In this document: piece by piece, positions 1 through 42,138 of the stretch
Numbering within the stretch: the stretch's first letter is position 1
How the letters are laid out: each line of letters opens with the position of its first letter
Assembly (NCBI GenBank): GCA_938074335.1
Contig: CALJEL010000031.1
Coordinates: 1-42,174, forward strand
Source of the DNA: an uncultured bacterium
GTDB lineage: Bacteria > Nitrospirota > Thermodesulfovibrionia > Thermodesulfovibrionales > CALJEL01
Direction of reading: 5' to 3'
DNA length: 42,174 bases
The notes under the pieces: model-generated
The model's input: the letters and a program-made list of their open reading frames with translations, nothing else
The model's database searches: none
Told to the model about the DNA's origin: nothing
Position numbers and translations under genes: made by a program

Positions 1-145
1 CAGTAGAGCAGCAGTCCTTATTAAGGATATTTTATCATGCACTGTTGCTCTGTTTATTAGCTACTGCTCTGCTGCGCTGCCGCTCTGTTGCTCTAAGAAG
101 ACTTTGAGGCAGACTGCCAGTTTTCTAATGGTAAAATAGAGATTC
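1..145. repeat. Palindromic CAG/CTG-rich repeat plus GGCAG module (cut by window start)
   Basis: Positions 1-100 hold two facing arms built of AGCAG/TAGAGCAG and CTGCTCTGCTG units around an AT-rich centre. This design recurs at 9746-9935, 22139-22248 and 35091-35196. It is followed directly (about 101-145) by a second module, GACTTTGAGGCAGACTGCC then TTTTCTAATGG, that recurs near 11852, 21650, 27032 and 35197. No coding potential is evident. The left end of the first arm lies outside the window. Confidence 0.75.
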
Positions 146-7051: not shown

Positions 7052-7792
7052 ACTAATGTGTTAAAATATATAGTGTCTAATGAACTCCTTAATATAAGAG
7101 AACTTAGCTACACCGTTAACGGGAAAAAGATCATAAGAGACCTTTCATTAACAATCCATCGTTCAGAGGTACATGCACTTCTTGGTGCAAATGGTTCTGG
7201 AAAGTCAACGCTTGCCTATCTCATAATGGGATGCGATGGATACAGACCGACATCCGGTCAGATAATATTTGAGGGAAATGTAATAAATGACCTTAAAATC
7301 CATGAAAGGGCAAGACTCGGCATCACTATGGCATGGCAGGAGCCTGTGCGGTTTGAGGGAATTTCTATCAAGGATTATCTGACCATCAGGAATAAAGACA
7401 TCGATCCATCCTATTACCTTAAGATGGTCGGATTGCATACAGAACTTTATCTCCACAGGATGGTTGATAAATTCTTGAGTGGAGGAGAAAGAAAACGGAT
7501 AGAGCTTGCGTCAATACTTGCCTTAAATCCGAAACTGGCAATCCTTGATGAACCTGACTCAGGTATAGATATGCTTTCAACGCAGGATATTATTAATGTT
7601 ATTAATGCCTTCAAAGAAAAGGGTTCTTCTGTTTTATTAATAACTCATAGAGAAGAAATCAGTCTTATAGCAGACAGGGCTTCACAGATATGTGGGGGAA
7701 AAATTATATGTTCTGGCAGCCCTCATGAAGTGGCAGAACATTACAAATCAAGGAAATGTTTTGTATGTGATGGAGAGATATGTAATATATAA
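7046..7792 (+). CDS. sufC: SufC-like Fe-S assembly ATPase
   Basis: ABC-type ATPase that energises the SufB scaffold in iron-sulfur cluster assembly. Visible motifs are Walker A GANGSGKST (near residue 52), Q-loop AWQEP, signature LSGGERKRIE, Walker B LAILDEPDSGID and H-switch THRE. Length (248) matches SufC. The N-terminus is uncertain: the ATG at 7046 lies in the porin fragment, and homologous sequence starts near LLNIRELSYTVNGK, so a GTG around 7073 may be used. The extreme C-terminus is KCFVCDGEICNI, an unusual CX2CX4C cluster. Its partner sufB starts 966 bases downstream, beyond repeats and a toxin-antitoxin pair. Confidence 0.85.
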   Translation: MQTNVLKYIVSNELLNIRELSYTVNGKKIIRDLSLTIHRSEVHALLGANGSGKSTLAYLIMGCDGYRPTSGQIIFEGNVINDLKIHERARLGITMAWQEPVRFEGISIKDYLTIRNKDIDPSYYLKMVGLHTELYLHRMVDKFLSGGERKRIELASILALNPKLAILDEPDSGIDMLSTQDIINVINAFKEKGSSVLLITHREEISLIADRASQICGGKIICSGSPHEVAEHYKSRKCFVCDGEICNI

Positions 7793-8095
7793 AACCCCAT
7801 TTTGCCGATACACTACTGGCAGGCTGCCTCACCATAGAGCGATAGTGCGACAGGTAGCCGCAGGCTTCCAGTCTGCGGCGATAAATGGTGAAAATACAAA
7901 AAAAGCATTGAACAGGCTGGAAGCCTGTTCTACCAGCTTGTGGCTACCAGCTTCAGGTGCCAGATCTGAAGTTAGTAGGGGCAACCCTTGCGGTTGCCCT
8001 CAAAAGGGTAGGGGCAAGCCCTACCCCTACTTCACTCCGTGCTGTAGCCTGCCAGTTTTGTTGAAAGGGGGTATCGGATTCTCTTAGCATTTTTC
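7793..8095. repeat. Repeat mosaic with REP-like GTAG palindromes between sufC and the TA pair
   Basis: This 300-base gap has no gene. It contains the GGCAGGCTGCCTC module (about 7817), a GTAGCC...GGCTAC palindromic unit (7854-7947) that also appears at 24640-24708 in inverted order, and a GTAGGGGCAA...CCCCTAC palindrome pair (7975-8030). It ends in a GGATTCTCTTAGCATTTTTC block shared with 15620-15645. The GTAG foot plus palindrome resembles REP elements mobilised by RAYT (TnpA-REP) transposases; no RAYT gene is in view. Confidence 0.7.
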
Positions 8096-9703: not shown

Positions 9704-10030
9704 ATTTTATATGTAAAACCGGACAGAGATTAATCCCTTCCAAAATAGAGCAGTAGACCAGCAGACCAGCAGAGCAGTAGCACAGACATTCTTGTCTGTG
9801 GCTTACTAAGTAGTGCTACAGTGCGATAGATAAAGCAGCAGTGCAGTAGAGCAGACATTTCTTCAAACAGTTCAAACTGTTCAAACTGTTTAAGCTGCTG
9901 CTCTTCTGCGCTGTTGCTCTGCTGCTCTAAGAAGGCTTTGAGGCATCCCCCGCCATTAGAGCACTGGATGAAGACAAGCTTCACCCCGTGAACCCCGATG
10001 AAAATGCATTTCTATCAGCAAATTTAGGCT
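9704..10030. repeat. Long palindromic repeat array
   Basis: Gene-free stretch between sufB and the malic enzyme. Positions 9746-9935 have facing arms of TAGAGCAG/CAGCAGAC and CTGCTGCTCTTCTGCG units. Between the arms are a small hairpin (ACAGACATTCTTGTCTGT, 9781-9798) and GTTCAAACTGTT palindromes (9875-9895). After this come the GGCTTTGAGGCATCCCCCGC block and a GACAAGCTTCACCCCGTGAA block that recurs at 12153. No ORF in it looks real. Confidence 0.75.
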
Positions 10031-11839: not shown

Positions 11840-12243
11840 AGTTATATCCCTAAATTGCCAATAGAAAACTGGCAGGCTGCCTCAAAGTCTTTATAATGCT
11901 AAAAAGGGCAGGCTGCCTCAAGGGCTTTACAAAGCTACGATTTTTATTTATCTAGTAACACAAGGTTTTCACTCAAGGTATGGGCTTAATAAGGTATAGG
12001 AAGCTTATTTATAACACCATTATACTAAGGTGTCGCTGGTAAAGCCCATTCAGCAGCCTACCCTTTTTATTTTTCAGAGGTGTCGCAAGCGGGGTCCCCA
12101 GAAAATCGTTAGATTTTCTGGGGTGTCAGTATTGCCTTAAGAGCACGAACTGAAGACAAGCTTCACCCCGTGAACCCCGAAAGTGCTGTAGCCTGCCAGT
12201 TTTATTGAAGGGTTTATTGGATTCTGTTGGCAATTTTTACGGT
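11840..12243. repeat. Repeat mosaic after ndk
   Basis: No gene in 404 bases. It opens with the module CCAATAGAAAACTGGCAGG (near 11858) and a second GGGCAGGCTGCCTCAAGG. TAAGGTGTCGCTGGTAAAGC (12026-12045) recurs at 27171. A strong hairpin lies at 12096-12123: CCCCAGAAAATC and GATTTTCTGGGG over GTTA. The segment 12078-12212 is repeated in inverted orientation at 34962-35089. The hairpin could act as a terminator, but no T-tract follows. Confidence 0.75.
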
Positions 12244-21538: not shown

Positions 21539-21700
21539 ATGGCCCTAAACTGCCGATAGGAATGGCGGGGGATGCTGAAAAGGCTTTATCGCGACACCTA
21601 TAATTAAAACTGTTTGAACTGTTTAAACCGTTTGAACCGTTCTAATAAAGACTTTGAGGCAGGCTGCCAGTTTTCTAATGGCAAAATAGAGTTAAGGGAT
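21539..21700. repeat. Repeat mosaic upstream of the CARF genes
   Basis: Holds AAACTGCCGATAGGAATGGC (near 21546), then GTTTGAACTGTTTAAACCG palindromes (21607-21640), then GACTTTGAGGCAGGCTGCC with TTTTCTAATGGCAAAATAGAG (near 21650-21694), a near copy of 104-145. The 21510-21900 gap has only a doubtful small ORF besides. Confidence 0.75.
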
Positions 21701-21900: not shown

Positions 21901-23277
21901 ATGAAGGACAGAAAAGAATCGGTTGCTGAAATATTTTATGCTGCATTAAAGGCTGTTGACCCTTATAGTGCAGTAAAGCTTTTTACAGATAAAATCCGTT
22001 CTGTTTATCAAGATGGCAACTTCAAAAGGCTCATTGTCGTAGGATTCGGTAAGGCAGCATGCACTATGGCAAAGGCAATAGAGGATAATCTTGGAGATTT
22101 GATTGATACAGGGATATTGATTACAAAATTCAGACATGCCATAGAGCAACAGAACAGGACAGCAGAGCAACAGCTAAATATGGCAAATAATTTATTCCTT
22201 AATAAAAACTACTGCTCTACTGCTCTTCTGCGCTTCTGCTCTATATTTGAGGCCGGTCATCCTGTGCCTGATGAAAACGGATTAAAGGGCACAGAAGAGA
22301 TAATAAAGATACTGAGAGATGCTGATGAAAATACCCTTATAGTATGCCTTATCTCAGGTGGAGGTTCCGCACTCCTTGTATCTCCATACGAGGGCATATC
22401 ACTTAATGAAAAACAGGCAATTACAGAATTGCTTCTAAAGTCGGGTGCGGATATAAATGAACTCAATACTGTGAGAAAGCATATATCAAAAGTAAAAGGC
22501 GGAAGGCTTGCAGAGATTGCCTATCCCGCAAAGGTCATATCTTTAATACTTTCCGATGTTATCGGTGATAGGCTCGATGTTATTGCATCAGGACCGACAG
22601 CCCCTGATAAGACAACATATAATGACTCATTAAAGGTTTTAGAAAAATACGGGCTGATTGATAACGCTCCGAGAAGCATAATTAATGTCTTCCAGAAAGG
22701 AGCAGATGGTTTTATACCAGAGACCCCAAAAGAGGGAAATAAAATCTTTGAAAATGTAGAAAACATTATCATTGGAAGTAACAGGATTGCCCTTAAAGCT
22801 GCAAAGGAGAAGGCAGAAGAACTCGGTTTTCATGCTGAGATAATATCCTCTGAGGTCACTGGTGAAGCAAGGGATGTGGGAAGGTGGCTTGCAGATATTG
22901 CCCGCTCAAAGCATTCAAACAGTTCAAACCGTTTAAACTGTTTAATTTCAGGAGGTGAAACAACAGTAACTGTTAAAGGTAATGGCAAAGGTGGCAGGAA
23001 TATGGAGCTTGCCCTTTCATTTGCGATAGAGATAGAAGGTATTGATGGAATAACCCTTCTTTCAGCAGGAACGGATGGAACAGACGGGCCAACTGATGCA
23101 GCAGGTGCGATTGTGGATGGAGAAACGCTTAAGAGGGCAAGGGCAATTGGGTTAAATCCAGAAGAATATCTGAACAACAATGATTCTTATAATTTTTTTA
23201 AGAAAATTAACATGCTATTCATCACAGGGCCTACAGGGACAAATGTCATGGACGTGCAGATAATGGTGATAGAATGA
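21901..23277 (+). CDS. gckA: Glycerate 2-kinase (MOFRL family) with in-frame repeat insertions
   Basis: Phosphorylates glycerate to 2-phosphoglycerate. The N-terminal part (VVGFGKAACTMAKAI), LISGGGSALLVSPYEG, LSDVIGDRLDVIASGPTAPD and the C-terminal MOFRL segment LISGGETTVTVKGNGKGGRNMELAL and LSAGTDGTDGPTDAAGA are all present. The protein is 458 residues, longer than usual. Residues about 80-116, between LITKFRHA and FEAGHPVPDENG, are encoded by a CAG/CTG palindromic repeat (22139-22248) in place of the short normal link. A second repeat lies at about residues 337-349. Both keep the frame, so the gene is intact. It overlaps mpgP by four bases. Confidence 0.9.
   Translation: MKDRKESVAEIFYAALKAVDPYSAVKLFTDKIRSVYQDGNFKRLIVVGFGKAACTMAKAIEDNLGDLIDTGILITKFRHAIEQQNRTAEQQLNMANNLFLNKNYCSTALLRFCSIFEAGHPVPDENGLKGTEEIIKILRDADENTLIVCLISGGGSALLVSPYEGISLNEKQAITELLLKSGADINELNTVRKHISKVKGGRLAEIAYPAKVISLILSDVIGDRLDVIASGPTAPDKTTYNDSLKVLEKYGLIDNAPRSIINVFQKGADGFIPETPKEGNKIFENVENIIIGSNRIALKAAKEKAEELGFHAEIISSEVTGEARDVGRWLADIARSKHSNSSNRLNCLISGGETTVTVKGNGKGGRNMELALSFAIEIEGIDGITLLSAGTDGTDGPTDAAGAIVDGETLKRARAIGLNPEEYLNNNDSYNFFKKINMLFITGPTGTNVMDVQIMVIE
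22139..22248 (+). repeat. Palindromic element inserted in frame in gckA
   Basis: ATAGAGCAACAGAACAGGAC and AGCAGAGCAACAG form the left arm; CTACTGCTCTACTGCTCTTC and GCGCTTCTGCTCTA form the right. The centre includes TTCCTTAATAAAAACTACTG, nearly the same as 35150-35168 of the intergenic copy (TTCCTCAATAAAAACTACTG). About 108 bases are read as residues 81-116. Confidence 0.88.
22909..22946 (+). repeat. GTTTGAAC-type palindrome within gckA
   Basis: AGCATTCAAACAGTTCAAAC and CGTTTAAACTGTTTAA form a dense set of palindromes like those at 9875-9895 and 21607-21640. It encodes SNSSNRLNC in a surface-variable region just before the ISGGETT motif. Confidence 0.7.
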
Positions 23278-24509: not shown

Positions 24510-24519
24510 GATTCAGTAT

Positions 24520-24589
24520 GTGGTTACTATATTGAAATGTCACACATAATTACTATTTTAAAATGTCACATATATGGTAGTCTCCTTCT
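24520..24589. mobile_element. Solo insertion-sequence end, 70 bases
   Basis: Every base from GTGGTTACTATATTG to TAGTCTCCTTCT is identical to 42039-42108, which precedes a probable transposase start. Here no transposase follows. It lies just upstream of the broken B12 gene's start, so insertion or excision may have been part of its decay. Confidence 0.8.
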
Positions 24590-24639
24590 GAAACATATAA
24601 TGTTTTACCTTTGTTTTCAAATCACTTTTCTTGCTCAAA

Positions 24640-27008: not shown

Positions 27009-27027
27009 CTATTTATTATATCAGACT

Positions 27028-27240
27028 CTATTTTGCCATTAGAAAACTGACAGTCTGCCTCAAGGTCTTTACAATGCGACAAATTTTATTTATTATGTAG
27101 CAAAAAGTCTTCACCCAAAAGGTGAAGTTAGTTATGTATAGTAAGCTTATTAATAGTATTACACTAAGGTGTCGCAGGTAAAGCCTTTTTCGGCAGACTG
27201 CCAGTTTTATTAAAGGCTTCTTATAAATTTCTAATGGCAG
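27028..27240. repeat. Repeat mosaic upstream of slt and acsE-like gene
   Basis: TTTTGCCATTAGAAAACTG (27033) with CAGTCTGCCTCAAGGTC is the inverted form of the module at 104-145. TAAGGTGTCGCAGGTAAAGC (27171) matches 12026. AGACTGCCAGTTTTATTAAAG and TTTCTAATGGCAGATT follow. The 27009-27414 gap is otherwise gene-free except for a short broken frame at 27319. Confidence 0.7.
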
Positions 27241-34849: not shown

Positions 34850-35260
34850 AATTTGATGGAAATTTGATACGAGGTGAATTTGATTAAAGCAGCAGGGCAG
34901 AGCAGCCATTTTTCTACTGGCAAAAATAGAAATCACCGAAAATTGTCGATAGAAATTTCCGATAAACCCTTCAACAAAACTGGCAGTCTACAGCACGGAC
35001 TGAAGCTTGTCTTCAGTCCGTGCTCTTAAGGCAATACTAACACTCCAGAAAATCTAACGATTTTTTGGGGTCCCCGCTTGCGACACCTTAATAGAGCAGT
35101 AGAGTAACAGAGCAGCAGCGCAGCAGTTAAATAATAATTTAAAAAATTCCTCAATAAAAACTACTGCTCTACTGCTCTGCTGCACTGCTGCTCTAAGAAG
35201 ACTTTGAGGCATCCCCCGCCATTAAAAAAAGCATTTCTATCAGCAAATTTAGGAAATCAA
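34850..35260. repeat. Largest repeat mosaic (efp to PA2779 gap)
   Basis: The 569-base gap has no gene. 34962-35089 is an inverted copy of 12078-12212 and contains the perfect hairpin AGCACGGACTGAAG / CTTCAGTCCGTGCT (34992-35024). 35091-35196 is the CAG/CTG palindromic element, the closest relative of the copy inside gckA. 35197 onward has GACTTTGAGGCATCCCCCGCC and GCATTTCTATCAGCAAATTT, shared with 9935-10027. Confidence 0.8.
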
Positions 35261-41986: not shown

Positions 41987-42038
41987 AACATATAATAGCT
42001 TAAGAGCCCTGTAAAAATCTATTAGTTTGGCTCACCCT

Positions 42039-42108
42039 GTGGTTACTATATTGAAATGTCACACATAATTACTATTTTAAAATGTCACATATATGGTAGT
42101 CTCCTTCT
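42039..42108 (+). mobile_element. Left end of an insertion sequence
   Basis: This 70-base segment is identical to 24520-24589. It has two TGTCACA-type direct sub-repeats (GAAATGTCACACA and AAAATGTCACATA). A probable transposase gene starts 31 bases downstream and runs off the window. Confidence 0.75.
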
Positions 42109-42138
42109 TAAGGATGAGAACATTTTAAGGAGGAGGCT

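Follow-up and report, generated by a model that had tools for sequence, protein, structure and literature searches.

How does a palindromic repeat come to be read, in frame, inside an otherwise intact enzyme gene? The question is raised by a glycerate kinase (GK) gene on the forward strand of the window, by which we mean the whole stretch of 42,174 nt analysed here (contig C31 of the source genome G000, which comprises 2.22 Mb in 116 contigs). An earlier note on this DNA had taken the segment at 22139-22248 for a copy of an intergenic palindrome lying in frame in GK, had compared its behaviour with that of Rickettsia elements, and had known of no such description for this lineage; we also found none for Nitrospirota in the open-access literature. 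An alignment with relatives, a search of open reading frames (ORFs) in related genomes and RNA folding, all proposed in that note, agreed with its idea, and so did an independently assembled genome as regards an assembly error. Beyond it, our analysis points to a horizontal origin of the GK gene, and revealed the element in ~59 ORFs of related genomes and unrelated repeats in the same loops.

The glycerate kinase gene and its insert

The GK ORF (21901..23277, + strand), identified from the ORF list, Pfam and a structure match, encodes 458 aa with the DUF4147 and MOFRL domains. The Pfam matches were PF13660 (E 2.2e-82) and PF05161 (E 1.4e-44), the nearest solved structure was 2b8n, the glycerate kinase of Thermotoga maritima (phmmer E 1.6e-110), and the nearest named relatives were Nitrospirota MAGs. 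At about residues 81-115, the gene carries an in-frame copy of a CAG/CTG 8-mer palindromic element of 104 nt (22141..22244, + strand). On this strand, the copy is composed of a left arm of degenerate AGAGCARY units (22141..22173), an AT-rich centre, CTAAATATGGCAAATAATTTATTCCTTAATAAAAAC (22174..22209), and a right arm of RYTGCTCT units (22210..22244), whose unit consensus is free of stops in every sense frame. The earlier estimate of 108 bases and about 36 added residues held as far as the open frame and the absence of stops are concerned, but the element proper is confined to 22141-22244 and encodes ~34 residues, with a net gain of 26.

The structure of the insert sites was checked with AlphaFold2 models in two cases only, GK and the AroA protein of genome G158. 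The GK model had a mean pLDDT of 89, with residues 84-108 as the sole segment below 50, and its comparison with 2b8n gave TM 0.82/0.90. In the AroA model, the insert (residues 72-84) was predicted as disordered and the fold was otherwise confident, with one further weak segment at 308-315. Apart from the insert, the GK enzyme is intact, as the earlier note had described it.

We also noticed a second repeat-like piece in GK (22905..22945, + strand), which belongs to a 9-mer TTCAAACAG family (D1) and is read in frame as HSNSSNRLNC. Residues resembling this peptide were present in G053, G023, G012 and G033. Further members of the 9-mer family lie at 9853-9902, 21595-21644 and 24090 of the window.

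Copies of the element in the source genome

The 110-base GK segment matched 53 places in G000 (E <= 0.001), which confirmed that it belongs to a dispersed palindromic family. The best other copy matched it from end to end, AT-rich centre included, with 81% identity (E 4.7e-22). A full-length intergenic copy (35092..35195, + strand; match at 35091-35195), supported by sequence match and folding, was 77% identical to the GK segment (E 9.1e-19). Both sequence and reading frame agree with the earlier description. In total, G000 contained ~71 near-full copies of ~95-104 nt with a conserved centre. Their common plan is [AGAGCARY]n, an AT-rich centre and [RYTGCTCT]n, with 8-nt tandem units and arms of ~34 nt; the commonest left-arm units were AGAGCAGC, AGAGCAAC, AGAGCAGT and AGCGCAGC, and the commonest right-arm units ACTGCTCT, GCTGGTCT and GCTGCTCT. 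The window also holds a rearranged intergenic copy, or its arms, adjoining a 9-mer array (9739..9929, strand not set) and, at the edge of the contig, an incomplete intergenic copy (1..95, - strand). The RNA of the GK copy was predicted to fold with -29 kcal/mol (z -4.7). Stronger folding was predicted for the intergenic copy, with z -7.7, as well as for the consensus, with z -7.5. No Rfam family reached the gathering threshold anywhere in the window, no DNA similar to the GK copy was found in plasmid records, and none similar to the intergenic copy in phage records.

Copies of the CAG element are surrounded by mosaics of further intergenic repeats, from families such as CTGGCAGGCTGCCTCAAAG, CACCCCGTGAACCCC and GACACCTTA, at 1-140, 7790-8068, 9952-9998, 11843-12221, 21545-21691, 27021-27217 and 34958-35088. 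A 74-nt direct repeat with 99% identity (24519-24592 and 42038-42111) is unrelated to this element.

The insert in glycerate kinase orthologues and the origin of the gene

In most aligned orthologues, the GK loop between ITKYGH and EAGHPVPD has 18-21 residues as measured here, in comparison to 45 in G000, and the insert is missing. In the closest orthologue without the insert, from G033, the loop has 19 residues, which gives the net gain of 26; this is below the ~34 encoded residues because several native loop residues were replaced. The insert was present in the same gene of G053, a separate MAG (CALGPO010000005.1), with only 2 differences in 102 nt. Since this genome was assembled independently, the insert is not an assembly error private to our contig. 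The GK gene of G023 has a shorter 8-mer array at the insert site, with a similar right arm; we read this array as a putative eroded, still in-frame descendant of the insert, a homology that rests on a short alignment.

The GK genes of G000 and G053 share 89% DNA identity, and their AroA genes 69%. In the GK tree, G000 was grouped with G053 within family f12 (support 93/94), whereas in the AroA tree it was grouped with its congener G001 (support 100/100), in which no GK was seen. The identity between the two GK genes rises to 95-100% in a tract at 21998..22498 (+ strand; 22001-22500 by rounded positions), with flanks of 77-89%, and at several flank positions the G053-G023 identity runs opposite to the G000-G053 trend. 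These sequence comparisons suggest that the GK gene was most likely acquired horizontally from f12, another family of the same order, and that the ~500-bp tract with the insert was most likely exchanged more recently than the gene itself; the tract identity could in principle also be a chimera of metagenome assembly. Given a horizontally acquired gene and an insert tract of 95-100% identity, the insertion probably did not occur in G000, and is best placed in the f12 lineage (g12). Between G000 and G053, the insert differs at only 2 of 102 nt, as opposed to an identity of 88.5% elsewhere. We considered strong constraint as the cause and dropped this idea because the recombination tract explains the difference.

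The same element in other genes and genomes

We built a profile, A2, from the inserted peptides (consensus xEQQSSRAxEQQ...TALLRYCxTAL). Of 230 genomes from the class, it matched 36, which belong to 19 genera. In a sample of the phylum, 15 of 396 genomes matched at a stricter cut, and all 15 belonged to this class. In the regions examined, the element was read through by 59 ORFs of related genomes with a length of 150 aa or more (a few were short or doubtful), and a Pfam family was found for 37 of the 41 that were scanned. The proteins identified by Pfam included AroA, HisF, CbiA, CbiD, CbiG/CobJ (with two inserts), CobS, ComEC and RecJ; further cases were a P-type ATPase, a BcrAD/BadFG activase, a NuoI-like Fe-S protein, RpiB, a histidine phosphatase, LptD, LptE, LolA, secretins, SpoIID, ApbE and others. 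The sole HisF found in G001 and the sole AroA found in G158 both carry the element. The proposed likeness to Rickettsia elements is supported, and the in-frame element recurs in dozens of genes from relatives.

The CbiD ORF of G045 (L224) has three in-frame copies, two of them with almost identical centres. G014 and the distant G218 belong to different families, yet their CbiA genes (L286 and L290) share an insertion site and a nearly identical element, centre TGVEPF included; this similarity in sequence suggests transfer. The signal peptides of many exported proteins (L090, L171, L186, L193, L222 and others) look as if made of repeats, with a right arm (LLRYCATAL) followed by LFTIHYSLFTAYA-like residues, apparently from TTCACTA-type repeats.

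Reading frame and coding fraction

Among the coding copies, the units were read in phase 2 in 38 cases, in phase 0 in 17 and in phase 1 in 5. By unit consensus in the sense direction, all frames of the right arm are free of stops, and CAR-TAG is the one stop that the left arm can form. With sense units nearly free of stops, the element is unusually readable. The ORF calls were mechanical, and detection based on ORFs favours stop-free copies; mapping of the copies found in two genomes, which is less biased, placed 17-18 of 31 within ORFs in G014 and 12 of 20 in G053. None of these mapped copies was recognised to have broken a gene. The same-strand neighbours of intergenic G014 copies were different genes rather than split halves (IlvD/TPP enzyme, FtsW/PBP, aminotransferase/GalT, two ABC ATPases, NuoC/NuoD, Fe-S protein/Rnf). 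If the frame were irrelevant, 18 of 18 in-frame copies would be expected with p about 2.6e-9, a value to which the ORF-based ascertainment applies.

In G000 itself in-frame copies are rare: only 3 of ~71 copies are coding, plus one eroded relic in AroA, and the high coding fraction is found in other genomes. That the G000 consensus offers too few open frames was considered as the cause, but this idea found only partial support. The consensus is open in one frame out of six, and among the 68 non-coding copies, 48 are open in one frame or more.

Loops shared by unrelated repeats

In GK, AroA and CbiA, the site where some species carry the CAG element is occupied in other species by different repeats, namely C7/G7 palindromes, arrays of GGGTCA, GAGTTAA, TTCACCC, AGAAGTC and GGGATT, and a 15-mer. 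Of the long GK loops, 9 of 14 were repeat-like, as was 1 of 32 short loops (Fisher p 1.6e-5, with cut-offs picked after the data were seen and with related species). It may be that certain surface loops and signal peptides of housekeeping enzymes in this class are open slots in which many unrelated repeat families, from 8-mer CAG palindromes and C7/G7 palindromes to arrays of GGGTCA, GAGTTAA, TTCACCC, AGAAGTC and others, are repeatedly swapped, that intergenic repeat DNA would thereby keep supplying new protein sequence, and that this spreads between families horizontally; we give this broader reading an even chance. The idea of slots has a precedent in R. japonica, for which insertion hot spots common to different groups of Rickettsia palindromic elements (RPE) were discussed (PMC3767692). 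Slots common to apparently unrelated repeat types over many genera are apparently new here.

Proposed mechanism and alternatives

The GK segment is, in our opinion, very probably a copy of a non-autonomous, dispersing palindrome (MITE- or RPE-like) of one Nitrospirota class, whose copies in genes are filtered by selection and whose GK insert came from the g12 lineage by transfer. The copies share centres, which points to dispersal, and they would land at many places in the genome. Those within genes would survive only when in frame, free of stops and located in a disordered surface loop or a signal peptide; we infer such a purifying filter from the mapping in two genomes, in which no copy was recognised to break a gene. 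The insertion into GK would have taken place in the g12 lineage of family f12 and been kept in frame, intact in G053 and with an in-frame deletion in G023. It would have entered G000 with the horizontally acquired gene, the ~500-bp insert tract being exchanged later, and the insert would be retained in the mature protein with a near-neutral effect on the enzyme. For the element, we identified neither transposition events nor target-site duplications, and no enzyme that would mobilise it. A Y1_Tnp/RAYT transposase as the driver was not supported: transposase counts do not track the element, as G033 has Y1_Tnp but no detected copy, the element-rich G045 (93% complete) lacks Y1_Tnp, and no pairing was seen.

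The loop length of GK varies in many species, so a hypervariable, low-complexity loop could resemble the repeat by chance; given an end-to-end match of 81% identity that extends through the centre, and dozens of unrelated proteins with this same peptide, such a coincidence is extremely improbable. An artefact of assembly or binning would be conceivable for one contig of 116, as repeats give rise to chimeras and the identity tract is sharp-edged, but it is very improbable when the separate record CALGPO010000005.1 shows the same insert in the same gene and our contig also holds a typical G000-type copy at 35092-35195.

The RNA is predicted to form a strong hairpin, and removal or bypass has been reported for palindromes of yeast mitochondria; bypassed palindromes in Magnusiomyces are cited in PMC6649704. 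If the element were spliced out or bypassed in translation here, giving an enzyme without the insert, neither the frame nor the absence of stops would be required, yet the gene-internal copies have both, and we regard such removal as improbable. The inserted loops could also have been co-opted for oligomerisation, localisation or regulation and kept by positive selection, as the same loops are used recurrently and persist across species, and right arms add to the hydrophobic cores of signal peptides. However, unrelated sequences occupy the same loop across species, which favours tolerance over a specific function, and the AlphaFold2 models predict no structure at the insert; co-option thus seems unlikely, though less so than the other alternatives. 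The dispersing palindrome with filtered copies remains our preferred explanation.

Comparison with known systems

REP sequences mobilised by RAYT (Y1_Tnp) are palindromes of 20-40 bp with a GTAG or CGTC tag at the foot, whereas the Nitrospirota consensus ends AGAGCAG..CTGCTCT and has no such tag. Short tandem heptamer or octamer repeats abundant in one lineage are represented by the cyanobacterial STRR. The TAACTGA repeats of Beggiatoaceae (PMC4679880) likewise have short tandem units of 7-8 nt abundant in one lineage. Both are direct repeats and mainly intergenic, whereas the units described here are arranged as inverted arms on either side of a centre and are also found within ORFs. The coding palindromes of Nematomorpha mitochondria (PMC6649704) are likewise long inverted repeats within functional protein genes, but they are perfect, maintained and mitochondrial, and ours is a dispersed bacterial family. 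The enterobacterial RU-1/RU-2/RU-3 (ERIC, YPAL) and the 107-bp Correia/NEMIS elements of Neisseria are also small and non-autonomous, with open frames and in-frame gene fusions that include signal peptides (PMC2759123, PMC2229807); as compared by description, they differ in hosts and sequences.

The nearest kind in behaviour, judged by published descriptions, appears to be the palindromic elements of Rickettsia (RPE) and Wolbachia (WPE), which are also dispersed palindromes of ~100-150 bp, many of them in frame within conserved proteins. The RPE and WPE inserts lie at exposed sites, some of which are occupied by one group of elements in one species and by another group elsewhere (PMC3767692, PMC10969869); the predicted disorder of the GK and AroA inserts is as would be expected at such sites. 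An insert-bearing guanylate kinase of Rickettsia was active with a changed substrate affinity (PMC2229807), which provides a precedent for tolerance. We do not claim membership, as the host lineage differs and is not Rickettsiales. The Nitrospirota element has arms of 8-nt tandem units, a variable centre, and slots shared with unrelated repeat families.

High-frequency in-frame colonisation of conserved genes was previously ascribed for the most part to Rickettsia and Wolbachia. These bacteria live within cells and have reduced genomes, so that weak selection is a natural explanation in their case. Its occurrence in uncultured genomes of ~2 Mb from a distant phylum suggests that it does not depend on an intracellular lifestyle, and the passage from repeat to protein becomes directly testable in the many pairs of species of which one has a filled slot and the other an empty one. 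Repeat DNA appears to have been turned into extra protein loops in Nitrospirota, a process known until now mainly from Rickettsia and Wolbachia, by an element which behaves like RPE, yet is apparently a different element of a distant phylum.
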